A stretch of 43,144 nt of DNA from a virus, in the IMG/VR virus record IMGVR_UViG_3300017967_000055, positions 1 through 43,144 of that record; one strand, written 5' to 3'. The first letter of the stretch is position 1. Every line of letters begins with the position of its first letter. The notes beneath the pieces are model-generated. The model saw nothing but the letters and a program-made list of their open reading frames with translations. It did no database searches and was not told the origin of the DNA. Position numbers and translations under genes: made by a program. This document shows, in pieces, positions 21,191-41,068 of this stretch.

Positions 21191-23593
21191 CTAGTCGTAT
21201 TGTAAGTCTACTAGTGCCCTATGTTTAGCATCACTGCCTAGTAGTAAGTTAATGTTTCTTCTCATATTATCATGAACTGCCTTGCCTCGATAAATCCCTC
21301 TATCTACATACCAGGCTTGGTTATCAGTTAAAACTGTATTGTACTGGCCAAAATTAGGGTTGTAACCCATTATAGTCAGTGTCAATCTCTGGTCGGTGTC
21401 AAAACCACCGTCATCTTGGTTGGATTCCACGTTCTCTTTTAACGTTTCCTCAATTTCTTCTTGTGACATACTTGATAATGCCTGTTCTGCCCTTGCCATT
21501 TGCCTTTGCTCTTGGGGAGCAGGTGGTGCAACATCAAATTTGCCAAAATCTGGCTGGACACCACTTAGGAATTGTCCCAAACTTTGTCCTGTTGCCAAAG
21601 ATTCTGTTAAATCGTTCTCAAATTGTACTGCTTGTTCACTAAATGTAAGGCTCTCCACTGTTTCTTCAACAGTTTCGCCACTCTCACTTTGTAGGCTAGT
21701 GTCAGAAACACTGATTTCTGAGGTTTCCTCTCCTGCAAGTAGTGTGCTAGTACTCTCATTTTCATTTTGTTCAGTTTCTACACTAAAATCAACATTTTCA
21801 ACGCCAATTTCAGGTGTTCCGTCGCCAAAATCCTCTGTTTCTTGAGCAGAATTTGTATTACCCTGTGCTTGTTGTACTGTCTCAGCAATTACCTCTGTCA
21901 CAATAGCCAATAAACGCGTTTGTTTTTCTTTTCGTATTGTTCTTTTTTCATCCTCGTTATTAACTGCTGTTTCTTCTACTGATTCAATTTCTTCAGATAC
22001 GGGTAATTCTTCCTCAATAATACTCACTTCCTCTTCCACCTGTGTAATTTCTTCTTCAAAATACGCATCATCTACTACAGGCTCTTCAAAAATTTCTTCA
22101 AAAACATCTGTTGGTGACTCTTCTTGTAACACCATCTCCTCTACATAAATTTCTTCTTCAACCGCAGCTACTTCTACTACTGGTTCTACAATAGTTTCTT
22201 CTACTTCAGGTGTAGTAAAGTCTAGAATGCCGTCATCTACAAAATCCTCTTCTCCAGTATAAGTTTCAGTGAACGTTTCTTCTTGGTAACCGAAATCCTC
22301 TTCCTCTGTTATACTTTCTTCTATAATTGTTTCTGTTTGTTCGTTTGCCATTTGTATTGCTAATGCTTCTTCATAACCGTCACAACCAGTGTCATACAAA
22401 GGATCTGCCGAACAAGCCTCAGCATATAATAAAGCATCATATGCTACTTGATAACCTGGACACGCTTGATCGTAAAGAGGATTTAAATCACACTGTTGAT
22501 TGAAGTATGCTTGTTCATATCCTGGACAACCACTGTCATACAAAGGATCTAATCCACAAGAATAGTTGTAAAACGCTTCTTCGTAACCTGGACAGCCACT
22601 ATCATACAAAGGATCTTCTGTACATTGTTGTGCGTAATATGCTTCTTCATATCCTGGACAACCACTGTCATACAAAGGCGAGTTTTGACACTGCTGGTTG
22701 TAGTATGCTTGTTCGTATCCAGGACAACCAGGATCATACAAAGAGTCTATACTACATTGTTGATCATAGTATGCTTGTTCGTATCCAGGACAGCCTGTGT
22801 CATATAAAGGATCTGCATCACATTGTTGAGAGTAATAAGCGTCATCATATCCTTCACACGATGAATCGTTTAGTGGGTTACTACAATCGGGGCCAGATGT
22901 GTAACCCCCGTCTTGCCCGTACCATGCGGCATAAGTTCCTGTTTCTGTTTCATTTACTACTGAAGCAAAAGAAGCCACATCATCCATTGACAAACTACCT
23001 TGCCCGTAAAACAATTCGGTTACTTCATCGTAAACGTTACCATTTAAACTTGTCGTGTCACCAGTATATCCAATCCATACACTATGTTGTGTGATATTAA
23101 CATCTGCATAATGAAAATCAAAAGAGCCATCGGGCCATAGCTGTGCACCAAATGTATTTAAATTACTAGTACCAAATTCTTGTAAATTTTTCCAAAGAAA
23201 TGAAGTGCCACCTTCTCCTGTTTCATAAAAGTAACCTGAGTCTGGTATAGAAGTGTTATGTCTTAAGTCTGTCCACAGAGGAGCAAGCATGTAACTAAAA
23301 CTGTTTCCAGCATAGTTATAACCAGAAGGGTTGAACCCGCTGCAACAACCTTGGTTGTTAGTGCTAGAATTTCCGTAACCTGTTGTAGGGTCATACAATA
23401 AAATGAACCCGTTACTAGACATCCAGGCATCAGTAAAGATCCCACCGTAATATGGAAAGACGTGACCAAGTTGAATATGAACGGTGCCGTCATCGACACC
23501 ATTCATTACTTGAGTTTCTTCTGCTTGTAAACTATAGGGCAAGAAGCAGCAAGCCAATACCGCCAGCCACTTTAAGCATGTTTTCCAAAACAT
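21191..23593 (-). CDS. Large secreted protein with nidogen-like domain and Cys repeats (800 aa)
   Basis: This 800-aa protein begins with a signal peptide (residues 1-24, hydrophobic WLAVLACCFLPYSLQA). Residues about 30-220 resemble a nidogen-type (NIDO) domain (GIFTDAWMSSNGFILLYDP, MLAPLWTDLR, FGAQLWPDGSFDFHY). Residues about 245-410 are seven cysteine repeats of about 22 residues. A glutamate-rich low-complexity stretch (about 410-680) follows, then a C-terminal domain with PQEQRQMARAEQALSSM and a tail that looks conserved. It is probably a virion or envelope-associated protein made late; adhesion is an inference from the NIDO-like part. Confidence 0.8.
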   Translation of the reverse strand: MFWKTCLKWLAVLACCFLPYSLQAEETQVMNGVDDGTVHIQLGHVFPYYGGIFTDAWMSSNGFILLYDPTTGYGNSSTNNQGCCSGFNPSGYNYAGNSFSYMLAPLWTDLRHNTSIPDSGYFYETGEGGTSFLWKNLQEFGTSNLNTFGAQLWPDGSFDFHYADVNITQHSVWIGYTGDTTSLNGNVYDEVTELFYGQGSLSMDDVASFASVVNETETGTYAAWYGQDGGYTSGPDCSNPLNDSSCEGYDDAYYSQQCDADPLYDTGCPGYEQAYYDQQCSIDSLYDPGCPGYEQAYYNQQCQNSPLYDSGCPGYEEAYYAQQCTEDPLYDSGCPGYEEAFYNYSCGLDPLYDSGCPGYEQAYFNQQCDLNPLYDQACPGYQVAYDALLYAEACSADPLYDTGCDGYEEALAIQMANEQTETIIEESITEEEDFGYQEETFTETYTGEEDFVDDGILDFTTPEVEETIVEPVVEVAAVEEEIYVEEMVLQEESPTDVFEEIFEEPVVDDAYFEEEITQVEEEVSIIEEELPVSEEIESVEETAVNNEDEKRTIRKEKQTRLLAIVTEVIAETVQQAQGNTNSAQETEDFGDGTPEIGVENVDFSVETEQNENESTSTLLAGEETSEISVSDTSLQSESGETVEETVESLTFSEQAVQFENDLTESLATGQSLGQFLSGVQPDFGKFDVAPPAPQEQRQMARAEQALSSMSQEEIEETLKENVESNQDDGGFDTDQRLTLTIMGYNPNFGQYNTVLTDNQAWYVDRGIYRGKAVHDNMRRNINLLLGSDAKHRALVDLQYD
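22385..22858 (-). repeat. Seven tandem ~66-bp coding repeats (cysteine-rich)
   Basis: The unit is CPGYEQAYYNQQCxxxPLYDSG, 22 residues with two cysteines; six units are 22 residues and the seventh is 26, followed by a partial eighth (CDGYEEAL). The constant parts are CPGYE, AYY, QQC and PLYD. The repeats keep frame within the 800-aa gene. Two cysteines per unit suggest a disulphide-linked solenoid or stalk. Confidence 0.88.
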
Positions 23594-24596
23594 TTGATTT
23601 CTTCTCCTCGCCTTCTATTAAAACTTCGTCTAAAGCATTGTCAGGAATTAACTCTGGGTTGTCTTGCCAAGCAGTCAACGCATCGGCTCCAATTTTTCCT
23701 TCAAATGGACATGGTGTTCCTGCCATCATCATTGCTTTCCAAACTCTTTCATCTTGACACATTGTTGATACGGCTGCTACACGCATTCCCATATCATATA
23801 ATGTTTTACTAAGTTTAATTCTTTCACAGTTCATATCTCTTACAGATTTTCCTGCTGATAAACCCAGTATTTGAGTTTGTATTGCACCACTCACACCAGT
23901 CGTACACAAATCTTGTGAATACGAACTGCCTATGCTTGGAGCAATTGCACTTGGAGGGGGAGATTCAATCTTTTGATTAATATTTTGTGTTTGTACAGAC
24001 TCACTTCTAGACTCGTTTATGTTTCTATTTGTGTTGTCTGTTGTAACATTAGATTCTGATTCATTATAATTGTTATTAGTATTATTACTAGTACTATTTG
24101 AATTAGACTCATTAATATTAGTATTTGTATTATTACTAGTACTATTAGAGTTTATGTTTGAATTGTTGTTATTTGTATTAGTATTATTACTAGTACTATT
24201 CACCGTTGTATTGTTGGTGTTCGTATTATTGTTAGTATTAGTATTATTACTAGTGCTATTAACAGTGGTGTTATTGTTGTTCGTGTTTGTATTGTTACTA
24301 GTACTGTTAATATTAGTATTGTTATTATTGTTGTTAGTATTAGTTGACGTACTAGTACTGGTTGTGTTATTATTGTTAGTATTGGTATTGTTACTAGTAC
24401 TATTCACCGTCGTATTGTTGGTGTTAGTGTTATTATTAGTGTTTGTATTGGTATTGTTACTAGTAGAGTTTGTAGTGGTATTATTAGTTGTGTTTACATT
24501 AGTTGTCGTGTCACCACTTTCAGCGTCTTGTGCTTGGACACCAGATCCCATTAATATAAGTACCGCTGCTACCATTGGAGCAATCTTATTTAACAT
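23532..24596 (-). CDS. Secreted Asn/Thr/Ser-rich protein with conserved C-terminus (354 aa)
   Basis: This 354-aa protein has a signal peptide (residues 1-22, ending VQAQDA), then about 170 residues of almost pure asparagine, threonine and serine repeats (units such as TVNSTSNNTNTNN), and a C-terminal domain of about 130 residues with four cysteines (LCTTGVSGAIQTQ, MNCERIKLSKTLYDMG, STMCQDERVWKAMM, TPCPFEGKIG). A C-terminal hydrophobic helix (AGGIGLLLLAL) ends it. The C-terminal domain resembles a protein found in other marine T4-like phages, function unknown to me. It overlaps the next gene by 62 bases and sits behind a - strand late promoter. Confidence 0.8.
   Translation of the reverse strand: MLNKIAPMVAAVLILMGSGVQAQDAESGDTTTNVNTTNNTTTNSTSNNTNTNTNNNTNTNNTTVNSTSNNTNTNNNNTTSTSTSTNTNNNNNNTNINSTSNNTNTNNNNTTVNSTSNNTNTNNNTNTNNTTVNSTSNNTNTNNNNSNINSNSTSNNTNTNINESNSNSTSNNTNNNYNESESNVTTDNTNRNINESRSESVQTQNINQKIESPPPSAIAPSIGSSYSQDLCTTGVSGAIQTQILGLSAGKSVRDMNCERIKLSKTLYDMGMRVAAVSTMCQDERVWKAMMMAGTPCPFEGKIGADALTAWQDNPELIPDNALDEVLIEGEEKKSNVLENMLKVAGGIGLLLLAL
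24000..24500 (-). repeat. Low-complexity Asn/Thr/Ser coding repeats
   Basis: On the + strand the core GTATTATTACTAGTACTATT recurs about every 50-70 bases with small changes, encoding NSTSNNTNTN. It is part of the 23532-24596 gene. Copy number is likely to vary by slippage or recombination. Confidence 0.85.
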
Positions 24597-26058: not shown

Positions 26059-26658
26059 ATGGTTATTAAGCCTGAAAGAGTTTCCCTTTGGTTCGATTAT
26101 GTGCGATACCAAAATCATTTAAGTCAAAGATTCTCAGACTGTTTTTTCCCTTCTCAATTAAAGTCAAAAGATTGGCTTCTCACTCAAATGAGATTTTACT
26201 TGCCAGACATAATTACTGGTCAAGTGATTATTTTTGGAGGTTGGTACGGAATACTAGCAGGACTTTTTAGAGATAACAAAATGTGTAATGACATTGTTAC
26301 AGTTGACAAAGATCCTGAGTGTGTTAAAGTTGTTAAACAAGTAACTACAAAACAAGATAAAATTTTCCCTGTTACATGCGATATGGTTGATTATGAATAT
26401 ATCGCTCGTCCTGGTCTTGTAATTAATACAAGCTGCGAACACATCACACAAGAAGAATACGACAAATGGTATAATAATATTCCCATAAATACTTACTATA
26501 TCCTACAAAGTAATAATTTTGCTTTAGAAGAACACGTTAGAACCGCAGACAGCATTGAAGAGTTTGTGGAGCAATCTAAAGTATTGCCTTTCTATAGCGG
26601 AACACTTGATTTGGGTGAGATGAAAAGATTTATGATTATTGGAAGAAAGAATGGCTAA
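26059..26658 (+). CDS. Class I SAM-dependent methyltransferase-like protein
   Basis: This encodes a 199-aa Rossmann-fold protein. GQVIIFGGWYGILAGLF near residues 54-70 is in the position of the SAM-binding motif I, followed by the acidic end of strand 2 (IVTVDKDPECVKVV) and CDMVDY. The catalytic strand appears in GLVINTSCEHI. The ATG at 26059 begins one base after the upstream stop. It overlaps the radical SAM gene by 8 bases and opens the cassette that runs to 36486. I infer a small-molecule or sugar methyltransferase. Confidence 0.78.
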   Translation: MVIKPERVSLWFDYVRYQNHLSQRFSDCFFPSQLKSKDWLLTQMRFYLPDIITGQVIIFGGWYGILAGLFRDNKMCNDIVTVDKDPECVKVVKQVTTKQDKIFPVTCDMVDYEYIARPGLVINTSCEHITQEEYDKWYNNIPINTYYILQSNNFALEEHVRTADSIEEFVEQSKVLPFYSGTLDLGEMKRFMIIGRKNG

Positions 26659-28144
26659 AAAAGAATATGAATCTGATGTTGATGGTATTAAACAAAGAAC
26701 TGCTAAACTTGAAAAAGAGTTTAGCCCAACTTTTTGTTTAGCAAAATGGCATCATACCTCAATTTACATGTATTCGGGACAAACACATAGTTGTTACCAT
26801 CCTCGCCCTCATGATATCTCAGTAGAAGATATTAAAGTAAACCCAGCAGCACTACACAATACAAGACAAAAGAAGAAAGAACGAGCAGAAATGCTTGTTG
26901 GTGAAAAACCTGATGGTTGTAAGTATTGTTGGAATGTTGAAAGTTTAGATACTCCCGAAACACCTTATGAACAACAACATATTAGCGATAGAAAAATTCG
27001 TAACTCTAGTATCTACACACCAGAACGTGTAGAAGAGATTAAAAACATGCCTTGGGATTATGACGTTAATCCCGAATATATTGAAGTTGCTTTTCACAAT
27101 GAATGTAACTTTAAATGTGGCTATTGCCACCCTGCTGTAAGTACGAGCTTTTATAATGAGATTAAAAAGTTTGGTCCTTACAATATGGTTAAAAATCATG
27201 CCTTAGATATTGATTATATTGAAAAAAGTTCTCTTTTGTCATCATTAAAAGACGAAGATACCAATCCGTTTGTTAAAGCGTGGTGGGAATGGTGGCCAGA
27301 GATGTCTAAAACGTTGAACATTCTTCGTATTACAGGTGGCGAGCCATTGTTACATAAATCTACATGGCGCTTGTTTGATGATTTGAAAGAGAATCCAAAA
27401 CCACACTTAGAAATCAATGTTAATAGTAATTTAGGTATGTCCTCTAGACATGTTCAGAAGCTCGTGCCTAAAATCACTGAATTATTAGACACGAAAAAAA
27501 TTCGTAAGTTTAAAATGTTTACAAGCATGGATACTTGGGGCAAACGTGCTGAGTATTTGCGAACTGGTTTAGATATCGAGACTTGGGAAAAGAATCAAGA
27601 CATTTATGTAAGAGGTGTTAAGAGTCATATCACTCACATGTGTACATTTAATATTTTGTCAGTGACTTCTTTTACAGACTACTTGCAAAAGATTTTAGAT
27701 TGGAGAGAATTGTATGATGATGTGATTCCTGTTCTTGATCCTAAAAATCCTCAAGATAGAAAAATTAGATTTGACACACCATATCTAAAAGAGCCATTAC
27801 AATACGATATGCACATTTTACCAAAAGAAGAATACTTACCTCACTTTGATAAAATTTTGCAGTTTATTGATGACAATAGAGACGACAAAGATACCACTAA
27901 ATTTAGTAATATTGAGTATGAACGTTTTCGTCGTGTAAGGGATTACTTTGCAGAAGTACAATATGATGAGGAAAAAGTAAAACAAGGCAGAATCGATTTT
28001 TATAACTGGTTTACAGAAATTGATCGCAGAAGAAATACAAACTTTTTAGAAACCTTTCCAGATATGAGTTCTTTTTGGGATCTTTGTAAAGGACTTGCTG
28101 AAGAAAGAACAAGAGATAGGATAGATGTTGTAAATGTTAGCTAA
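26651..28144 (+). CDS. Twitch-domain radical SAM protein A
   Basis: This encodes a 497-aa enzyme with an N-terminal twitch-like auxiliary-cluster domain (C48 in HSCYHP, C90 and C93 in CKYCW) ahead of the radical SAM core (CNFKCGYC, C152, C156, C159) and the SAM-binding GGEPLL near residue 228. The C-terminal 200 residues are a helical domain ending in RRRNTNFLETFPDMSSFW. This matches the 'N-terminal twitch radical SAM' family of marine phages and bacteria, whose substrate is not known. The 33530 gene is a full-length paralogue. I chose the ATG at 26651 with GGAAGAAAG upstream. Confidence 0.9.
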   Translation: MAKKEYESDVDGIKQRTAKLEKEFSPTFCLAKWHHTSIYMYSGQTHSCYHPRPHDISVEDIKVNPAALHNTRQKKKERAEMLVGEKPDGCKYCWNVESLDTPETPYEQQHISDRKIRNSSIYTPERVEEIKNMPWDYDVNPEYIEVAFHNECNFKCGYCHPAVSTSFYNEIKKFGPYNMVKNHALDIDYIEKSSLLSSLKDEDTNPFVKAWWEWWPEMSKTLNILRITGGEPLLHKSTWRLFDDLKENPKPHLEINVNSNLGMSSRHVQKLVPKITELLDTKKIRKFKMFTSMDTWGKRAEYLRTGLDIETWEKNQDIYVRGVKSHITHMCTFNILSVTSFTDYLQKILDWRELYDDVIPVLDPKNPQDRKIRFDTPYLKEPLQYDMHILPKEEYLPHFDKILQFIDDNRDDKDTTKFSNIEYERFRRVRDYFAEVQYDEEKVKQGRIDFYNWFTEIDRRRNTNFLETFPDMSSFWDLCKGLAEERTRDRIDVVNVS

Positions 28145-28952
28145 TACAGATACTGTTATACTGGGATTGGGAGATTCTTATTTACAAGGATCAGAAGCTG
28201 GTGGCGCAGAGTACTCTTTTTTAAACAATTACTGCAATCAAAAAGGATTTGATTGTGTTAATATGGGACACGAAGGCATTGGCAATCTAGGGAGTGTATA
28301 TAAAGCACTTATTTACGATATTGATTGGAGTCAATGGAATAATAAATATATTTTCTGGATGCCTACCGGTTTAAATCGATTTGATATGTCCAACAGATCA
28401 TGGAAACCTGATGATAATTGGGGTGTAGTACATAACTCTCCAATATTTACACCATTTCCTAATAGACACCCTCACGACAAATGGAGTGACAGTAGAAAGA
28501 AATTAGAGAAATCTTTAGCAGAGTTTACTACCCCACAGACTGTTAGGCAAGATTTTTTAACAGCCTATCAAATTCTAAAAAACTTTTATGACGCAAAAGG
28601 TTTTAACAAATTACTTATTTTTCCTGCCTTTAATGATGAAACCACACGGAAAAATATGAAAGATTTTCGTAAAACTCCCGCGACGCAGGGCATATATAAA
28701 ATGAACGAGGGTCTGTTTAAAAGAATGGGTTGGGAATATTATATTACAGTAGATGGCTCTAACAATTATTTCCAATGGCTTTGTCAGAAGGCAGGTTTGC
28801 CATCAAATACACAACCACATAGTACTATGGAAACTACCCCAGATAATATAAGAAACGAAACCGTTGAAAAATGGATTGCTCCTCGATCTCATGCAACAAG
28901 AAAAGCCAATATCGTTTTTTCTAGGAGACTATTAGAAGTTTTAGACTTATGA
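28134..28952 (+). CDS. SGNH/GDSL hydrolase-like protein 7
   Basis: This encodes a 272-aa protein with block I VILGLGDSYLQGSEAGG near residues 8-24, block II glycines in NMGHEGIGNLGSV, and a C-terminal histidine in APRSHATRKANIVFSRRL near 249-266, where the usual DxxH is not clear. The catalytic acid may therefore be missing or displaced. The middle is long and tryptophan-rich. It overlaps the radical SAM gene by 11 bases and the epimerase gene by 4 bases, so the three are co-translated. Confidence 0.78.
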   Translation: MLANTDTVILGLGDSYLQGSEAGGAEYSFLNNYCNQKGFDCVNMGHEGIGNLGSVYKALIYDIDWSQWNNKYIFWMPTGLNRFDMSNRSWKPDDNWGVVHNSPIFTPFPNRHPHDKWSDSRKKLEKSLAEFTTPQTVRQDFLTAYQILKNFYDAKGFNKLLIFPAFNDETTRKNMKDFRKTPATQGIYKMNEGLFKRMGWEYYITVDGSNNYFQWLCQKAGLPSNTQPHSTMETTPDNIRNETVEKWIAPRSHATRKANIVFSRRLLEVLDL

Positions 28953-29953
28953 AAATTTTAATTACAGGAATTGCAGGTTTTTTAGGTAGTCATTTAGCAG
29001 AAAAACTATCTGCTATGACAGAAGCAAACATTATCGGAAATGATTCTCTTATTGGGGGTTATGCAGACAATGTTCCTTCCCATATTCATTGGGAAGTTGT
29101 AGATTGTTGTGACTTTAATGAAATGAATCGTTTAATGGAGGGGGTTGATGTTGTCGTACACGCAGCAGCCACTGCACACGAAGGATTGTCAGTATTCTCA
29201 CCTTCATTTATTACAAAAAATATTTTTGAAGCGTCTGTTACTACAATGTCAGCCGCTGTTGCTAATAATGTTAAGAAATTTATTTTTTGTAGCTCAATGG
29301 CTAGATATGGAAATCAAGAGTCCCCTTTTACCGAGGATATGACACCACAGCCTGTTGATCCTTACGCTGTTGCAAAAGTAGCGGCTGAAGATGTGTTAAA
29401 AATATTGGGCAAAGTTCACGGAATGAAATGGAATATTGCAGTGCCTCATAATATCGTTGGACCCAAACAACGTTATGACGATCCTTTTAGAAATGTTATG
29501 AGCATTATGGCTAATAGAAACTTAATGGGTAAGCCTTCTATTATTTACGGAGACGGTGAACAAACTAGATGTTTTTCTTATGTTGACGATTGCGTTAGAT
29601 GTTTAATGGAAATGATTTTTAGAGATGACATTAACGAAGAAGTTATTAACATCGGCCCGGACGAAGGTAGCATTACAATCAACGATTTAGCTAATTTAGT
29701 TGCAGACAAAACTGGTGTAAATGCAGAACCAATTTATATGGACGACAGACCTCAAGAAGTAAAACATGCAAATTGTTCTGCTGATAAAGCTAGAGAACTA
29801 TTGCATTTTAAGACAAACACTACAGTAGAAGAAATGGTAGAGTCCGTGGTACAATATATAAAAGACAAAGGACCTAAACCCTTTAATTATAATTTGCCAG
29901 TTGAGATTAAAAATGAAAAAACTCCTAAAACATGGTCCGAGGGTCTCATGTAA
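28949..29953 (+). CDS. NAD-dependent epimerase/dehydratase (extended SDR) A
   Basis: This encodes a 334-aa extended short-chain dehydrogenase. The NAD-binding motif is ILITGIAGFLGSHLAE (GxxGxxG) at residues 3-18, the SSMARYG strand carries the catalytic serine, and Y139 and K143 in DPYAVAKVAAEDVL form YxxxK. The GPKQRYDDPFRNVMSIM and RCFSYVDDCVRCLMEM segments match nucleotide-sugar epimerases such as UDP-glucose 4-epimerase relatives. It probably acts on a nucleotide sugar in the cytoplasm. The stop TAA overlaps the next ATG by one base. Confidence 0.92.
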   Translation: MKILITGIAGFLGSHLAEKLSAMTEANIIGNDSLIGGYADNVPSHIHWEVVDCCDFNEMNRLMEGVDVVVHAAATAHEGLSVFSPSFITKNIFEASVTTMSAAVANNVKKFIFCSSMARYGNQESPFTEDMTPQPVDPYAVAKVAAEDVLKILGKVHGMKWNIAVPHNIVGPKQRYDDPFRNVMSIMANRNLMGKPSIIYGDGEQTRCFSYVDDCVRCLMEMIFRDDINEEVINIGPDEGSITINDLANLVADKTGVNAEPIYMDDRPQEVKHANCSADKARELLHFKTNTTVEEMVESVVQYIKDKGPKPFNYNLPVEIKNEKTPKTWSEGLM

Positions 29954-31269
29954 TGAATTTTAGATTTAAGGACAAGGTGAATCTATTATGCTTTCCTCAA
30001 GATGAAGAAAACTTAAATCTGTCAGGATTACAGCGCTTTACACCATGTCCAATAACCACTACACTTGTTCGTTATTGGCAAACAAAAGAAAAATATAAAA
30101 ATGCTTCTTTTGAAGACTTTTCTACAAGCAAAAAAGAAAAGTATGTTATTTCAACAGCAGTAAATCATAATCCTCACGAATGGTGTGGCTCAGACAATAT
30201 TGGTCAAGGAGCACACCCTCAACACCCAAACAGAAAAAATGTTTTTGACTGTTTAGATTACGAACAAATGACTGATTTACAAAAAGGCAACGCAATGCTT
30301 GTTTTGGATCAAAGTCATGAAGGCTATCAAACAGAATGGTTGTGGAGTTGGTTTCATAACTCTTGTGAAATGTATTTAATCAATCCTAAAGCAGTTGTTT
30401 ATGTTACTGGTAACTGTAAAGCAAAAGAACAATACACAGCGTGGGCAAATACACATGGTCTTGTTAATAGAATAAAAGTTATTCCTCACACACACTTTGA
30501 AAATATGATTCATGTAACTGCTGTTAATGAAGTTAGAATTCATAAAAAAGATCCGTTACCAACGTTTGAAGATCATATGGCTTACAAGGCGACAAATGAT
30601 TGTAAGACTTTTAATGCGTTACAAAAAAGAGTTCGTCCTCATAGAACCTGGTTGTTTAAAACTTTGTACGATCATGACTTAGTCGATAAAGGTCTTTGTA
30701 GTATGAACGAATTTCAACCAGATCAAACGTTTATGGAAACTAAAGGTATTGACAACGAACATTGTTTGTTGTATAATAGAGGATTACCATTAAAAGCATA
30801 CGGTGTAGCTAATAATGAAAAAGATGATGGCTACTATATTACTAGATTTAATAGTGATGTAGTATTAGATACCTATGTTAGTGTAGTAAGTGAAGCTTCT
30901 TTTGCTGATGCGGATCAAACATGCTTTTTAAGTGAAAAAACATTTAAATCTATTGCGTGTGAGCATCCTTTTATTGTATTTGGCAATCGTGACTCCTTAC
31001 GTTATTTAAAAGAGTTTGGTTACAAAACATTTCATCCTTTTATTGATGAAACTTACGATACGCTGCCTACATGGGAAAGATTAAATGCCATTGCTAAAGA
31101 GTTACAGCGAATTGATGCAATAGAAGATAAACTAGAGTGGTTTGCAGGTATGGAAGATATTTTAAAACATAACAGAAAGGTTCTAAAAAGAAACTCAGAA
31201 GAATACTTACCTGACTCTATGATTGAATTAATTAATTACTATAAGGAATATTTTCATGTGGAAGGATGA
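29953..31269 (+). CDS. Glycosyltransferase-like protein (438 aa)
   Basis: This encodes a 438-aa soluble protein. The C-terminal half contains YVSVVSEASFADADQTCFLSEKTFKSIACEHPFIVFGNRDSLRYL near residues 300-345, which follows the 'F.SEK......G.P.I..G' donor-binding pattern of GT-B enzymes such as the fucosyltransferase group. The N-terminal half is less informative (LNLSGLQRFTPCP; HEWCGSDNIGQGAHPQHP). A transferase acting on a nucleotide sugar supplied by the neighbouring epimerase is a reasonable inference. The start at 29953 uses the TAATG overlap. Confidence 0.6.
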   Translation: MNFRFKDKVNLLCFPQDEENLNLSGLQRFTPCPITTTLVRYWQTKEKYKNASFEDFSTSKKEKYVISTAVNHNPHEWCGSDNIGQGAHPQHPNRKNVFDCLDYEQMTDLQKGNAMLVLDQSHEGYQTEWLWSWFHNSCEMYLINPKAVVYVTGNCKAKEQYTAWANTHGLVNRIKVIPHTHFENMIHVTAVNEVRIHKKDPLPTFEDHMAYKATNDCKTFNALQKRVRPHRTWLFKTLYDHDLVDKGLCSMNEFQPDQTFMETKGIDNEHCLLYNRGLPLKAYGVANNEKDDGYYITRFNSDVVLDTYVSVVSEASFADADQTCFLSEKTFKSIACEHPFIVFGNRDSLRYLKEFGYKTFHPFIDETYDTLPTWERLNAIAKELQRIDAIEDKLEWFAGMEDILKHNRKVLKRNSEEYLPDSMIELINYYKEYFHVEG

Positions 31270-32206
31270 GTATACCCGTGTCAATGATGACATTATAAAA
31301 CATAAAAAGGCGGTAATTGGATTTGGTTGTTCATTTTCAGATGGACAAGGAGCCATTGAACAAGAAATCCTTGATAATTATCCTTGGTATATAGATGGCG
31401 GTAACACACTCAAATGGGATAAACTAACCAAAGAACAACAAAGTGAAGTTAAAGCCAAATATCATGATGTTGGAACTCTTCCTTGGATGCAAAATGGCAC
31501 AACATTAGATTTTCATTTGCACGAAAGACGTCGAGCATATTCTTATCAGCTTGCAGAGATGTTAGGGGATCATGCAGGTATTAACTTTGGTATGCGAGGC
31601 AATGGTAATAGAGCAAGTATTAGTCAACTGTTTACGCACCCCGAATTACTGTTACATCGTTTAGAGGAAATTATTGTTATTTACACCCCAGCAGGTGTTG
31701 AACGTTTTGATTTCTTTCAAAAGACTCTTAATGATCATCATAACTTTATTACAATGTGGCCGCACGAAGATAATTTTCCTGAAGATGTTTGGAGAAGCAA
31801 TTTGTGGGGAGCATACAAACATTATTTGTTGTCAGATTTAAACATTTTACAAGAACAGGTTTTACAAGTAAGAATTTTAGAAACTTGGTTAAAATCGACA
31901 GGAGCAAAATGGAAACTTATTATCGTTCCTGCTTATGACTATGCTCTCTATGAACAGCACTATAACGGCAAAGCTAAAGAGTTTTATAAAAAGAATTGGC
32001 CACATCAATATATGTGGAAACCAGATGGCGAACTTACATTTATGAATTTGGTAGAACAAGCAGAAGGGTTGGAAAGAAACTCTTATTATGGTTACATGGG
32101 AAAAGGATCGCCTGGTGGGTGGGTTACACCTTGTGCGCATCCTTCTATCAAAGGACATAAATTGTTTGCAGAAAAATTATATGAGAAGATTAAAAATGAA
32201 GCGTGA
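31256..32206 (+). CDS. SGNH/GDSL hydrolase-like protein 8
   Basis: This encodes a 316-aa protein with block I VIGFGCSFSDGQGAIEQE near residues 20-37, block II in NFGMRGNGNRASIS (the glycine and the block III-like asparagines), and the C-terminal histidine in TPCAHPSIKGHKLFAEKL near 293-310. The usual aspartate three residues before the histidine is replaced (CAHP), so the acid may come from elsewhere. It overlaps the preceding gene by 14 bases and the next by 11 bases. Confidence 0.82.
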   Translation: MWKDEYTRVNDDIIKHKKAVIGFGCSFSDGQGAIEQEILDNYPWYIDGGNTLKWDKLTKEQQSEVKAKYHDVGTLPWMQNGTTLDFHLHERRRAYSYQLAEMLGDHAGINFGMRGNGNRASISQLFTHPELLLHRLEEIIVIYTPAGVERFDFFQKTLNDHHNFITMWPHEDNFPEDVWRSNLWGAYKHYLLSDLNILQEQVLQVRILETWLKSTGAKWKLIIVPAYDYALYEQHYNGKAKEFYKKNWPHQYMWKPDGELTFMNLVEQAEGLERNSYYGYMGKGSPGGWVTPCAHPSIKGHKLFAEKLYEKIKNEA

Positions 32207-33140
32207 TTATAAACCAAATGGATTACAATACGAGCCCAATATTTTTTGGCAAATTACAAAAGATGTCCCTGTTGAAAGAAGAAAAAAAATCCATGAAGAT
32301 GAAAAACATTTTCCTGATTGTGATGCTTTTCCAGCACCTATTTTCTTACAGGAAAATTATCCCTTGGTTTACCAAGAGCCTTGTAATGAACAGCCAAACG
32401 GTTCTTATAAGTTTTCAACAGGAGATGACGAAAATAAATTTCAACAGAACCTAAAAACACAACCTGATGATTGGAAGTACCGAACACAAGAGGTGTATTA
32501 TAATTTAAATAACAATGGTTATAGAGCACAATCTTGGGAAAAAATAGATTGGGAAAACAGCGTCGTTGTATTGGGTTGCTCTTGTGTTTTTGGAACAGGG
32601 TTGTCGGAGTTTGAAACACTTGATGCTGCATTAGCAGATGCATATAACGGTAGACCTTTTATCAATTTAGGTTATCCTGGAGGATCTAACGAACATACTT
32701 TATACAACCTAACAATGTTGTTTAAATATTTTCCAATGCCAGCAGGTGTTATTGTTTCATATACAACAACAGATAGATCATTATCGTTTGAAGATATGCG
32801 AGCTTATGGTATTGGTCCTTGGGATGTTGCTAATTATCCGGAAAGAGAAACAATCATACACGGAGAAAATAAAACTCAACAATACTTAGCAAACTTTTTG
32901 TCAAAGTCTAATGAATTAGGAAGAAACTACTTTACTGCTTCTGTAATACAGCAAATGTGTGATATGTCAGGTGTCCCAAGTTATCATTTTTCATGGTTCC
33001 AGAGTGCCGCACACGCTGCAAGAGTAGATTATGTTCCGTATTTAGGTGTTAAGGCAGACAGAGCAAGAGATTTGTTACACCCCGGTGCTGAGGTAATGAG
33101 ATCTACTGCTAGTCATATTAAAAAGCATTTTCCGTTATAA
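32196..33140 (+). CDS. SGNH/GDSL hydrolase-like protein 9
   Basis: This encodes a 314-aa protein with a long N-terminal extension of about 120 residues (polar, with YNLNNNGYRAQSW) before block I, VVVLGCSCVFGTGLSEFETL near residues 122-141. Block II glycines are in NLGYPGGSNEHTL, and the catalytic pair is in DLLHPGAEVMRSTASHI near 291-307. The start at 32196 (MKRDYKPNG) overlaps the end of the preceding SGNH-like gene; longer in-frame starts would run opposite it. The late box at 33136 overlaps its stop codon. Confidence 0.82.
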   Translation: MKRDYKPNGLQYEPNIFWQITKDVPVERRKKIHEDEKHFPDCDAFPAPIFLQENYPLVYQEPCNEQPNGSYKFSTGDDENKFQQNLKTQPDDWKYRTQEVYYNLNNNGYRAQSWEKIDWENSVVVLGCSCVFGTGLSEFETLDAALADAYNGRPFINLGYPGGSNEHTLYNLTMLFKYFPMPAGVIVSYTTTDRSLSFEDMRAYGIGPWDVANYPERETIIHGENKTQQYLANFLSKSNELGRNYFTASVIQQMCDMSGVPSYHFSWFQSAAHAARVDYVPYLGVKADRARDLLHPGAEVMRSTASHIKKHFPL

Positions 33141-33143
33141 ATA
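33136..33143 (+). promoter_or_regulatory. T4-type late promoter box
   Basis: An exact TATAAATA overlaps the stop codon of the ninth SGNH-like gene, 6 bases before the 33150 ATG. Transcription from it would start at or just inside the 33150 gene and read into the small genes and the second radical SAM gene. Confidence 0.5.
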
Positions 33144-33149
33144 AATTGT

Positions 33150-33401
33150 ATGAAGGAAACATTGAAAAACTTTTTTAAAAAGCTATTTTTAGAGAGATGG
33201 GAGTTAACAATATACTTTCCCGCAGAAACAAAAGTTTTGCCTGACGGAACCAGGCTGGAAACAGTGTCTCCCAAGACGTATATCGTCAAGCGTATAAAAA
33301 AGTTATCACACCTTCATATGGTGTTTGTTGAAGAAAACGGCATGCGACATGAAATAAAAGTTGTCAATCCCGTTGGATATGATTTAAGGAAAATATTTTA
33401 A
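33150..33401 (+). CDS. Small basic phage protein (83 aa)
   Basis: This encodes an 83-aa basic protein (KETLKNFFKKLFLERWELTIYF, then KTYIVKRIKKLSHLHMVFVEENG). The N-terminal amphipathic helix followed by beta strands suggests a small SH3-like or OB-like fold. It overlaps the next small gene by one base (TAATG). Similar pairs of small proteins occur in other T4-like marine phages; the function is unknown. Confidence 0.75.
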   Translation: MKETLKNFFKKLFLERWELTIYFPAETKVLPDGTRLETVSPKTYIVKRIKKLSHLHMVFVEENGMRHEIKVVNPVGYDLRKIF

Positions 33402-33514
33402 TGAAAAAATTGTGGAATAAAATTAAAAATTGGTGGCTCGACAGAAAAGCCAAAAAAGAACTTGAAAAAAGAATTAAGGAACTAAAAGACCGAGATCCCT
33501 TTATTTACGACTAA
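33401..33514 (+). CDS. Small conserved phage protein with DPFIY end (37 aa)
   Basis: This encodes 37 residues: a basic, tryptophan-containing helix (KKLWNKIKNWWLDRKAKKEL) and the ending KRIKELKDRDPFIYD. Small proteins with a 'RDPFIY' ending are, as far as I recall, widespread in marine T4-like phages. The ATG overlaps the stop of the upstream gene. It is too short for routine ORF calling but well formed. Confidence 0.75.
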   Translation: MKKLWNKIKNWWLDRKAKKELEKRIKELKDRDPFIYD

Positions 33515-33529
33515 AGAAAAGATTATATT

Positions 33530-35041
33530 ATGAGTGATTATGGCAGTGCTGCTGATCAGGCAGAAAAGCAGCTTCGAAATATTTCTAAAACCATGTGTTA
33601 CGCAAAGTGGGCGCAGGTATCCATGCACCTTACTAACGGACAAACACATAGCTGTTATCACCCCCCTACACATAAAATTGATGTCTTAGAAATACAAGAC
33701 AATCCTTCTGCTCTGCACAATACAAAACAGAAAAAAGAAGAACGCAAAATGATGTTGGAAGGAAAACGTCCAGCTGGGTGTTCTTATTGTTGGAAGATTG
33801 AGGACGTTGGGGGAAGAAGTGATCGTATTTACCGAAGTGGAGAATACTGGGCTCAAAATGCCAGAAAAGATATAATCGAAACATTAGATATTGGTAACAT
33901 TAATCCACGTTATGTTGAAGTTAATTTTAATCAGGCATGTAACTTTAAATGCAGTTATTGTTCCCCTCACCTGTCTACTACATGGGAACGAGAAATTAAA
34001 AAAGAAGGTCCTTACAGTATTATTGGACAAGACGGGCATTCTACAAAACACAATGACATTGCTCATTTAGAAAAAATTGATTTAATGCCTATTAAAGTTG
34101 CACAGGATGAAAATCCTTATGTAACTGCTTTTTGGAAATGGTGGCCAGAGTTATATAAAACACTAGAAGTTTTTCGTATGACTGGAGGAGAGCCATTAAT
34201 GGATAGTAATACTTACAAGGTGTTGGATTACATTTATGAAAATCCAAACGCTTGGCTAGAAGTAAGTGTTACAAGCAATATGTGTCCCGATAAACCTAAA
34301 CTGATGGACATGTTTGTTGAAAAACTTCAAAAACTAGAGGAAATACAAATTTGGCAAAGCGACAGATTTAATCCCGGTTCAGGTAATCACTGGTATGTAA
34401 ATATGGCAGTGAAAAACTTTGCAGTATTTGTAAGTTTGGACGGAGCAGGAAAACAAGCAGAATATATTAGAAATGGTTTAAATTATGACACACTACAAAC
34501 AAATGTTGAACGTATTTTAGGGGATACATGTAATACAACCATTACATTTATTAATACATTTAACAGTTTAAGTTTAACGAGTTTTAAGGAATTCTTGGAG
34601 TATATTTTAGAATTACGACACGAGTATTCAAGACAAAACCAAGGTGTTAAAAAGATCCCTATCTACGATCCTTATAACACTCACCCGGACTTTGAAGTGC
34701 ACCCGAGACAACGTATTTGGTTCGATGTTCCACTTTTAAGAAATCCTGAATGGCAGTGTATTAATACTTTGCCAGAAGAATTTGAAAAATACTTAGAAGA
34801 AGCAATCGAGTTTATGGAACACAATTCTAATGTAGATGATTTTGTAGGCTTTTACGACTTTGAGATTGCCAAAGTTAAACGTAATCTAGAATGGATGCGT
34901 GAAAGAAATATGCCTAGAGAAAAACTTGATATTGCAAGAAAGAACTTTGTTAAGTTTTTCAAACAACACGACGAAAGGAGGGGAACTAACTTTTTAGACA
35001 CATTCCCTGAGTTTACAAGTTTTTGGAGGAAATGGGAATGA
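33530..35041 (+). CDS. Twitch-domain radical SAM protein B
   Basis: This encodes a 503-aa paralogue of the 26651 protein. The N-terminal auxiliary cluster cysteines are C42 (HSCYHP) and C84 and C87 (CSYCW); the radical SAM core is CNFKCSYC (C137, C141, C144), and GGEPLM follows. The C-terminal end (RRGTNFLDTFPEFTSFW) closely matches the paralogue. The two copies differ in the middle, so they may act on related but different substrates. It overlaps the carbamoyltransferase start by 4 bases, so the two are coupled. Confidence 0.92.
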   Translation: MSDYGSAADQAEKQLRNISKTMCYAKWAQVSMHLTNGQTHSCYHPPTHKIDVLEIQDNPSALHNTKQKKEERKMMLEGKRPAGCSYCWKIEDVGGRSDRIYRSGEYWAQNARKDIIETLDIGNINPRYVEVNFNQACNFKCSYCSPHLSTTWEREIKKEGPYSIIGQDGHSTKHNDIAHLEKIDLMPIKVAQDENPYVTAFWKWWPELYKTLEVFRMTGGEPLMDSNTYKVLDYIYENPNAWLEVSVTSNMCPDKPKLMDMFVEKLQKLEEIQIWQSDRFNPGSGNHWYVNMAVKNFAVFVSLDGAGKQAEYIRNGLNYDTLQTNVERILGDTCNTTITFINTFNSLSLTSFKEFLEYILELRHEYSRQNQGVKKIPIYDPYNTHPDFEVHPRQRIWFDVPLLRNPEWQCINTLPEEFEKYLEEAIEFMEHNSNVDDFVGFYDFEIAKVKRNLEWMRERNMPREKLDIARKNFVKFFKQHDERRGTNFLDTFPEFTSFWRKWE

Positions 35042-36486
35042 GTGATAAAATAGTTTGGGGTGTAGCGGCAGGGACACATGATGGATCTTTGACAGTGATG
35101 AAAGGAAATGATATTCTTTTTGCATCTCACTCTGAAAGATTTTCCAGAAAGAAAAACGATAAAGATTTACATCACTATTTAATTGGGGAGGCGATGGAAT
35201 ATGGATATCCTGAAAAAATTTACTGGTATGAAAACCCTCTTGTTAAAGCAACAAGAAAACTTTATGCTGGCCAAAAAGACATTTGGTTATCACCTAAGAA
35301 ATACATGGAACGCTATGGTATCTTTGACACTGTTATATGGGGAGATCATCATGCAAGCCACGCTTCTGCTGGTTATTATACTTCTCATTTTACAAACGCT
35401 TGTGTTTTAGTTGTTGATGCTATTGGAGAGTGGACTACAACCTCAATTTGGAAAGGCACTAATACAGACTTAAAATGTTTAAATCGCTGGAAGTATCCTA
35501 AATCATTAGGATTATTTTACAGTGCATTTACAGACAGAGTTGGCCTAAAAGCAAATGAGGACGAATACATTTTAATGGGTATGGCTGCTTACGGCAATCC
35601 TGATAGGTTTTATGATGAAATTATGGAACTATCTGTTTTACACGATAATTTTCACAGGGGTATTAGATGGTGGAAGCCAGAACTTACTGAGGAAGATTAT
35701 TTTGATGTTGCTGCTGCCACACAAAAGGTTTATGAAGTATATCTAAAAAGAATACTTACAAAAGCAAAAGAACTGACAGGTGAAGAAAATTTAGTTTTTA
35801 TGGGAGGGTGTGCTCTTAATTGTCTGGCAAATAGAATTATTCCAGATTATTTTAAGAGTAGTTGGATTATGCCTAACCCCGGTGACGCTGGCTCTTCGTT
35901 AGGTGCTATTTTAGCACAAACAAAAGAAAGAGCAAATTGGTTAACTCCTTACTTGGGGCATAATATTGAAGGTGAGTATCCTGTAGACAAGGTGTTTAAA
36001 GAATTGATTAAAACCGGTATGTGTGGTGTGGCAAATGGCCGCGCTGAATTTGGTCCACGTGCTTTAGGTAATCGTTCTCTTCTCGCTGATCCTAGAGGTA
36101 TAGAGATGAAGGACAAAGTAAACACAATTAAAAACAGGCAGGAATATCGTCCTTTTGCTCCTGTTATTAGACAGGAAGACGTTAGAGATCATTTTAAAGT
36201 TGGTCCACACTTCACTTCTCCTTACATGCAATATATTGTGGAAGCAAAAGAGCCTGAAAAATACCCTGCTATTGTACACCAAGACGGAACCAGTAGAGTG
36301 CAGACAGTAACAAAATTGCAACACCCGGGTTTGTATAACTTACTTACAAAATGGAAAGAAAAAACAGGGTGTCCTATGTTACTTAATACAAGTTTAAATA
36401 TTAAAGGACAACCCATTGTTAACACCGAAGAGAATGCAAAAGACTTTGAAAAACACTATGGTGTTAAGGTTTTTACGGCTAAGTGA
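35038..36486 (+). CDS. NodU/CmcH-family carbamoyltransferase
   Basis: This 482-aa enzyme has the full set of O-carbamoyltransferase motifs: an N-terminal ASKHA-fold metal site (HDGSLTV, SHSERFSRKKND, DHHASHASAGYYTS), GGCALNCLANRI, NPGDAGSSLGA, and the YrdC-like C-terminal part (RAEFGPRALGNRSLLADPR, YRPFAPVI, LLNTSLNIKGQPIVNT). Such enzymes transfer carbamoyl from carbamoyl phosphate, through carbamoyl-AMP, to hydroxyls of sugars or natural products. GGAGG lies about 9 bases before ATG 35038. It is the last gene of the cassette. Confidence 0.95.
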   Translation: MSDKIVWGVAAGTHDGSLTVMKGNDILFASHSERFSRKKNDKDLHHYLIGEAMEYGYPEKIYWYENPLVKATRKLYAGQKDIWLSPKKYMERYGIFDTVIWGDHHASHASAGYYTSHFTNACVLVVDAIGEWTTTSIWKGTNTDLKCLNRWKYPKSLGLFYSAFTDRVGLKANEDEYILMGMAAYGNPDRFYDEIMELSVLHDNFHRGIRWWKPELTEEDYFDVAAATQKVYEVYLKRILTKAKELTGEENLVFMGGCALNCLANRIIPDYFKSSWIMPNPGDAGSSLGAILAQTKERANWLTPYLGHNIEGEYPVDKVFKELIKTGMCGVANGRAEFGPRALGNRSLLADPRGIEMKDKVNTIKNRQEYRPFAPVIRQEDVRDHFKVGPHFTSPYMQYIVEAKEPEKYPAIVHQDGTSRVQTVTKLQHPGLYNLLTKWKEKTGCPMLLNTSLNIKGQPIVNTEENAKDFEKHYGVKVFTAK

Positions 36487-40110: not shown

Positions 40111-40144
40111 TTGACAAATTAAACAAAAGGTGTTATTATAAATA
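40111..40144 (+). promoter_or_regulatory. Overlapping sigma70-like and T4-type late promoter for tmRNA
   Basis: TTGACA at 40111-40116 and TATTAT at 40134-40139 are 17 bases apart. An exact late box TATAAATA occupies 40137-40144, sharing bases with the -10. The tmRNA could therefore be made both early, by host RNA polymerase, and late, by the gp33-modified enzyme. Confidence 0.8.
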
Positions 40145-40164
40145 CCTTGTTCGATGAAACGGAC
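40144..40164 (+). repeat. Direct repeat, left copy, at 5' end of permuted tmRNA
   Basis: ACCTTGTTCGATGAAACGG here matches ACCTTGTTATCAAACGG at 40442-40458, differing by a 2-base gap and one substitution. The two copies mark the opposite ends of the permuted gene. Confidence 0.75.
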
Positions 40165-40181
40165 TGAAAGGTTACTTGGAC

Positions 40182-40209
40182 GCGGGTGCGATTCCCGCCA
40201 CCTCCACCA
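40182..40209 (+). other. tmRNA acceptor piece: T-arm, acceptor strand, CCA
   Basis: T stem 40182-40186 and 40194-40198 (5 bp), T-loop TGCGATT at 40187-40193, acceptor strand 40199-40205, discriminator A at 40206 and CCA at 40207-40209. The loop has G where tRNAs usually have the second T (TTC becomes TGC). The CCA is encoded, so no addition is needed. Confidence 0.92.
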
Positions 40210-40302
40210 GATATGTATTTGTGTATTTGTAACAATGTAAGAGAAAACGATACTGATAAGTATCATCTGATTGGAACAAATTGTGGTAAGTGCATATCTG
40301 AT
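40208..40302 (+). other. tmRNA intervening segment with processing hairpins
   Basis: CAGATATG (40208-40215) pairs perfectly with CATATCTG (40293-40300), stacking on the acceptor stem and closing the spacer as a loop. Inside it, GATACT/AGTATC (40249-40264) forms a 6-bp hairpin with a GATA loop. This spacer would be cut out to give separate acceptor and coding RNAs, as in known two-piece tmRNAs. Confidence 0.85.
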
Positions 40303-40387
40303 GGGGGTGAACAGGTTCGACAGGTAATAAGTAGGAAAGTGGAGGACCAGTGCGGAAGCTACTGTGAACGCAACAAAACAAATAAAT

Positions 40388-40420
40388 GCCAACGATGAGG
40401 TATTTTCTCTAGCTGCATAA
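40388..40420 (+). other. tmRNA tag reading frame (ANDEVFSLAA)
   Basis: The frame runs from the resume codon GCC at 40388 to TAA at 40418-40420 and encodes ANDEVFSLAA. With the alanine carried by the tRNA-like part the tag would be AANDEVFSLAA. It ends LAA, the form recognised by ClpXP, and starts like the E. coli tag (AANDENYALAA). ATAAAT precedes the resume codon, in the place of ATAGTC in E. coli. Confidence 0.92.
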
Positions 40421-40441
40421 GTTAGACGGGGTATGGGTTCC

Positions 40442-40460
40442 ACCTTGTTATCAAACGGGC
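40442..40460 (+). repeat. Direct repeat, right copy, at 3' end of permuted tmRNA
   Basis: This is the right copy of the diverged repeat at 40144-40164. It lies at the 3' end of the coding piece, 24 bases before the ATG of the SleB-type gene. It may be a relic of the tandem duplication that made the permuted gene. Confidence 0.75.
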
Positions 40461-40482
40461 CCCTGTATTAAAGGAGAAAAAT

Positions 40483-41043
40483 ATGCGTAATGTATTTTTA
40501 TCGTTATGCGGAATACTAATCCTAGGTGGTTGCAATGCTCTAGATGAAGAGCCAGTTAGTGCAAAAACTATTGAAGCAGCACCTAATATCGAAGCAATAC
40601 AAGAAGTACAAGATCCGAGGCAAGTGTCTTGTATTGCTAAAAACATTTATTTTGAGGCTAGCGGAGAGCCTCTAGAGGGACAAATTGCTGTAGCTCATGT
40701 TGTCTTAAATCGTGCAAAATCTAGTAATTATCCTAATACACCATGCGAGGTTGTTTACCAGGCACGTTTAAGCAAGTGGGGTTTAGAACGCGGTAAGGTT
40801 ATTCCTTTACGAAACCAATGTCAATTTTCTTGGTACTGCGATGGTAAATCCGATCTTATTAAAGATTGGAATCGTTATAGAAAGTTCGTTAGTATTGCTC
40901 ACGACGCAATGAGTGGTGAACTACAAGACAATACAAATGGAGCTTTATGGTATCATGCCAATTATGTTAATCCTTATTGGAACCGTAATATGCAGTTAGT
41001 AGCATATCACGGAGCACATAAATTTTATACAAAAAACTATTGA
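40483..41043 (+). CDS. SleB-type cell wall hydrolase lipoprotein
   Basis: This encodes a 186-aa protein with a lipoprotein signal peptide (MRNVFLSLCGILILGGCN, lipobox ILGGC with C17 as the lipidated cysteine). From about residue 49 it matches the hydrolase_2/SleB domain: CIAKNIYFEASGEPLEGQIAVAHVVLNRA, with the catalytic glutamate in YFEA, then YPNTPCEVVYQ and CQFSWYCDG. SleB-type enzymes cut peptidoglycan glycan strands. A membrane-anchored form could act in lysis or in remodelling the host envelope. AAAGGAG precedes the ATG, and it may be read from the tmRNA promoter. Confidence 0.9.
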   Translation: MRNVFLSLCGILILGGCNALDEEPVSAKTIEAAPNIEAIQEVQDPRQVSCIAKNIYFEASGEPLEGQIAVAHVVLNRAKSSNYPNTPCEVVYQARLSKWGLERGKVIPLRNQCQFSWYCDGKSDLIKDWNRYRKFVSIAHDAMSGELQDNTNGALWYHANYVNPYWNRNMQLVAYHGAHKFYTKNY

Positions 41044-41068
41044 CAAATCTTTTTGTATAGTGTATAAT
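41040..41068 (+). promoter_or_regulatory. Sigma70-like promoter abutting a start codon
   Basis: TTGACA at 41040-41045 overlaps the TGA stop of the SleB-type gene. TATAAT at 41063-41068 is 17 bases downstream. The ATG at 41076 lies 7 bases after the -10, so the transcript would begin at or next to it. Confidence 0.85.

Follow-up and report, generated by a model that had tools for sequence, protein, structure and literature searches.

Several phage-encoded tmRNAs of the permuted, two-piece kind have already been described. A 2022 article (PMC9004378) reports such a gene for the Methylophilales phage Melnitz and assigns the two-piece form to 53 of the 133 unique structures among phage tmRNAs; 50 of the 53 come from aquatic phages. 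Phage sequences number 79 in the 2025 tmRNA database, whose authors made the Rfam model RF04321 (PMC11915505). Many permuted tmRNAs are present in viral contigs. We analysed a virus record of 43 kb (43,144 nucleotides; hereafter the window), which looks like a fragment, and identified a circularly permuted tmRNA encoded at 40148-40464 on the + strand. An earlier note on this DNA could not say whether a phage example had been described; the possibility of a first one falls with the Melnitz gene, the 53 two-piece structures and the 79 phage sequences of the database. The window gene is a further member of the already published phage two-piece tmRNAs.

Identity and anatomy of the gene

ARAGORN places a permuted tmRNA with the tag ANDEVFSLAA at 40117-40511, and the tmRNA_permuted model of Rfam (RF04321) gives a full-model match at 40148-40420 with 118.6 bits (E 1e-22; gathering score 47). 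The hallmarks of this model are found at the locus: a tRNA-like 3' half that lies upstream of the tag-coding half and is joined to it as one acceptor stem, the alanine identity pair G3-U70 together with a CCA end, and an open tag frame that follows the resume codon and closes on a degradation-type end. Among the three clade models (beta, alpha and cyanobacterial), RF01850 beta_tmRNA scores best, with 94.9 bits against a gathering score of 84, and the alphaproteobacterial permuted model RF01849 is also over its cut-off (68 bits, gathering score 50). The cyanobacterial permuted type is rejected at 38.2 bits, below its cut-off of 70, as is a standard one-piece tmRNA (RF00023, 28.2 bits, under its cut-off).

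The central claim of the earlier note, a phage-encoded, circularly permuted two-piece tmRNA, is thus confirmed by searches of the kind it had proposed, with Rfam models and ARAGORN, and the acceptor stem, G3-U70, CCA, T stem and tag are all where it had put them. Its extent for the gene, 40145-40460, needed a small correction at the 3' side, where the pseudoknot region carries the gene on to about 40464. The D-loop signature that it had cited stands as a region, with a qualification for its bases: from the D-loop AACAGGTTCGAC and the T loop TGCGATT, position 18 is not the usual G and position 55 is not the usual U.

Table 1. Features of the tmRNA locus, in coordinates of the window
Feature	Position	Strand	Remarks
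Sigma70-like promoter	40111-40139	+	TTGACA 40111-40116, 17-nt spacer, TATTAT 40134-40139; 11/12 consensus matches
T4-type late-promoter box TATAAATA	40137-40144	+	Overlaps the -10 box; position kept in diverged relatives
Acceptor piece (tRNA-like 3' half, encoded CCA)	40148-40209	+	Start from RF04321 (40148) and promoter position
T arm	40182-40198	+	Stem GCGGG/CCCGC, loop TGCGATT
T stem strands	40182-40186 / 40194-40198	+	
T-loop position 55	40188		G
3' acceptor strand	40199-40205	+	CACCTCC, then ACCA 40206-40209
Intervening segment	40210-40302	+	93 nt
Coding piece	40303-40464	+	5' acceptor strand to 3' pseudoknot region; 3' end approximate
5' acceptor strand	40303-40309	+	GGGGGTG
G3-U70	40305 / 40203		G40305/T40203
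D-loop region AACAGGTTCGAC	40310-40321	+	A18 = 40313, G19 = 40314
P2 strand	40322-40328	+	Pairs with 40171-40177
Tag reading frame	40388-40420	+	GCC...TAA, ANDEVFSLAA; frame opens with the resume codon
SleB-like cell-wall hydrolase	40483-41043	+	Hydrolase_2, PF07486, 94.1 bits; directly downstream of the tmRNA

Judged from the sequence, the 5' end of the acceptor piece would lie at or near the transcription start, at about 40147-40150. The segment between the two pieces is predicted to form a long hairpin that extends the acceptor stem (precursor fold z -3.8), and it would be removed during maturation.

Covariation, promoter and neighbourhood in phage relatives

Phage relatives, gathered by protein search and with two DNA patterns, gave 142 permuted ARAGORN hits, of which 76 are distinct. 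With anchors chosen without use of the acceptor pairing, a perfect 7-bp acceptor stem is found in 75/76 distinct phage tmRNAs and in ten sequence versions, so the halves do pair with each other in spite of their permuted order; in partner-swapped controls a 7/7 stem appears in 12%, with real and swapped stems alike given the most favourable of nine offsets. Compensatory changes in relatives, which the earlier note had wished to see sought, are present on both sides of acceptor pairs 4, 5 and 6 among these 76 tmRNAs, and the T stem shows double changes of the same covarying kind. The G3-U70 pair is constant wherever the acceptor stem is full (75/75), and the P2 pairing has a mean of 5.2/6 vs 4.5/6 in swapped controls. 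Phage tags vary between lineages and end mostly in -AA, including those from the T-arm pattern, which is blind to the tag. Two-piece phage tmRNAs are thereby shown to be common and under selection.

The tmRNA gene of the window begins directly after a composite promoter. Counted 20-85 nt before the GAC anchor, and mostly lying at 42-48 nt, TATAAATA occurs in 23/106 distinct phage tmRNA loci vs 0.9% of control stretches, and it is common to loci with otherwise dissimilar upstream sequences. It overlaps 15/26 of the sigma70-like sites before phage tmRNAs vs 7/1018 elsewhere in the same loci, statistics that are only indicative because related loci are not independent. The motif could in part be a plain sigma70 -10 box; at two loci (L005 and L166) it is present without TTGACA. 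A window-wide enrichment of TATAAATA was rejected (7 vs 4.8 expected), only its placement before tmRNA genes being enriched. The arrangement raises a hypothesis about timing, with expression both early and late, vs early only as proposed for Melnitz, whose authors assumed early expression of the tmRNA; in the accessible part of their article (PMC9004378) we found no mention of a late box at the Melnitz tmRNA gene.

The attribution to a T4-like phage, also made in the earlier note, is borne out by genes for RNase H (PF09293), a gp59-type helicase loader (phrog_269), PhoH (phrog_170) and a cyanophage-type exonuclease (phrog_298) in the window, the exonuclease being closest to cyanomyophage proteins, and by the T4-type capsid protein gp23 in several tmRNA-bearing relatives. 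In a partly redundant set made up of the window and of loci found by DNA pattern, not by the SleB protein, a SleB relative lies at most 500 nt downstream on the same strand in 36 loci and elsewhere in the locus in 15, with none in 63 that have room for it. SmpB (PF01668) was found in none of 14 viral records, which are fragments, and gave matches in 10 control bacteria.

Other parts of the window and of the data set are recorded here as separate observations. A perfect sigma70 consensus, TTGACA-17-TATAAT, lies at 41040-41068, between the SleB-like gene and an epimerase-like gene. A sugar-modification/radical-SAM cluster at 26639-36486, with a nucleotide-sugar epimerase, a Nol-like carbamoyltransferase and two radical-SAM proteins, perhaps serves glycan or virion/DNA modification. 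Two large ORFs, of 800 and 354 aa, occupy 21191-24596 on the minus strand; neither Pfam nor PHROGs gave a family match for the former, and the latter matched just a single PHROG, whose function is not known. A 2-Mb assembly (L303 genome, G004) yielded three permuted tmRNA hits above the cut-off on different contigs, perhaps phage contigs binned with it.

The tRNA-like core and lineage of the gene

With positions 18 and 55 assigned by alignment on TCGAC, the window core is A18/G55, not G18/U55. The same A18/G55 core is found in 60/60 distinct permuted tmRNAs of a class-wide alphaproteobacterial sample, in which the T-loop triplet is GGC in 57 sequences and TGC in 3, and G18/U55 is found in all four betas sampled. 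Scored at a fixed offset, 84 phage sequences are A18/G55, 16 are G18/U55 and 7 are G18/G55; these seven scores probably stem from one extra D-loop base, which the inspected sequences have, with A then G still there. The 18-55 tertiary contact is thus seen as a coupled double change, and we found no description of this coupling in a literature search confined to open-access papers. PMC1168896 notes a G at the same T-loop place for Caulobacter and for the mitochondrion of R. americana, and the idea of G55 as a phage-only oddity was rejected on the Caulobacter precedent and its generality in the alphaproteobacteria sampled. G55 in itself counts against a working tmRNA, yet it is normal for alphaproteobacterial permuted tmRNAs. 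The coupled change offers a natural test of which core contacts are needed for charging, for binding SmpB and for modifying the T loop.

In a FastTree phylogeny rooted on the betas, the window falls in an all-phage clade inside the A18/G55 group; this clade stands beside the alphas, in a tree of short sequences whose inner supports are low to moderate. Membership of the beta clade is indicated by the model score (94.9 vs 84) and by neither the core, which is not G18/U55, nor the tree, which does not place the window with the betas; the A18/G55 core is the one expected of the alpha clade. A betaproteobacterial origin read from the model score alone is weakened by A18/G55 and by the tree, and there is moderate support, from short sequences, for a phage-borne lineage that lies nearer the alphas and has a short tag. 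The earlier note had likened the tag to gammaproteobacterial and some betaproteobacterial ones and left the origin unclear, a comparison that can now be refined: the tag and the best model are beta-like, the core is of the alpha type, and the gene belongs to an all-phage clade. The best Rfam clade model is an unsafe basis for deciding where phage tmRNAs came from.

Proposed function and comparison with known systems

Besides the gene anatomy, covariation and promoter-motif conservation observed here, SmpB is absent from the window and the relatives tested, and we consider the gene to be, most probably, a working phage copy of ssrA that is made early and late and uses host SmpB. In its transcription and processing, its charging, its reliance on SmpB and its value to the phage, it would follow established two-piece tmRNAs. 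A single precursor would be made from the composite promoter, by host sigma70 early and by the T4-type late machinery later, and host tRNA-processing enzymes would excise the 93-nt spacer, with RNase P acting at 40303 and CCA-end trimming at 40209. The acceptor stem and P2 would hold the acceptor and coding pieces together. Host AlaRS would charge the assembled tmRNA via G3-U70, and host SmpB would deliver it to ribosomes that have stalled on broken mRNA; there ANDEVFSLAA would be added to the stalled product and lead to its proteolysis. By tagging the products of stalled ribosomes with the help of host AlaRS and SmpB, the phage would keep up ribosome rescue during the degradation of host DNA and mRNA, and phage control of rescue through its own tmRNA is plausible. 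On a broader reading, which we judge evenly balanced, the gene would represent an old lineage carried by phages, with a composite early/late promoter dedicated to it, providing rescue RNA through the whole infection, often as a co-transcript with SleB, and marked by a coupled G-U to A-G switch at 18-55.

It is unlikely that the tag instead directs a proteolysis unlike that of the host tag, for example in the early recycling of host proteins, as suggested for Melnitz (PMC9004378): the phage tags do differ among lineages, but ANDEVFSLAA resembles an ordinary degradation tag, and the late box speaks against early-only use. That the RNA is a decoy, binding SmpB or stalled ribosomes and inhibiting host trans-translation, is decidedly improbable despite a proposed precedent in the tRNA-domain-only RNA of mycobacteriophage DS6A, because a decoy would need no tag, and the coding piece has kept its tag frame, its stop codon, its -LAA end and its pseudoknot region, with G3-U70 invariant in relatives. 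Fragments of ssrA do occur in prophages (PMC9004378), but a recently captured, drifting host fragment without function is scarcely credible for a gene with both halves complete, compensatory changes across a deep all-phage clade, a conserved promoter motif and a frequent SleB neighbour.

The window gene is most readily compared with that of Melnitz, likewise a phage-encoded two-piece tmRNA of a T4-like marine phage (PMC9004378), with A18 together with G55 and with TTGACA-17-TATAAATA upstream; the Melnitz tag is longer, ANDNYVPVDYALAA, and a glutamine riboswitch is reported for that phage in the same source, whereas an Rfam scan of the window gave none. The consensus T loop of RF04321 has UUC where the window has UGC. 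The betas of RF01850 resemble the window in their short ANDE..LAA tag and CCUUGUUA pseudoknot loop, but they have a G18/U55 core (4/4 sampled), three lack an encoded CCA, and they score 169-296 bits vs 94.9 for the window. The alphas of RF01849, in contrast, have the A18/G55 core in common with the window and differ in their type of tag; on the window, their model is outscored by the beta model by 27 bits. Beyond the published phage tmRNAs, the A18/G55 core, the composite promoter and the frequent SleB-like neighbour add new detail.
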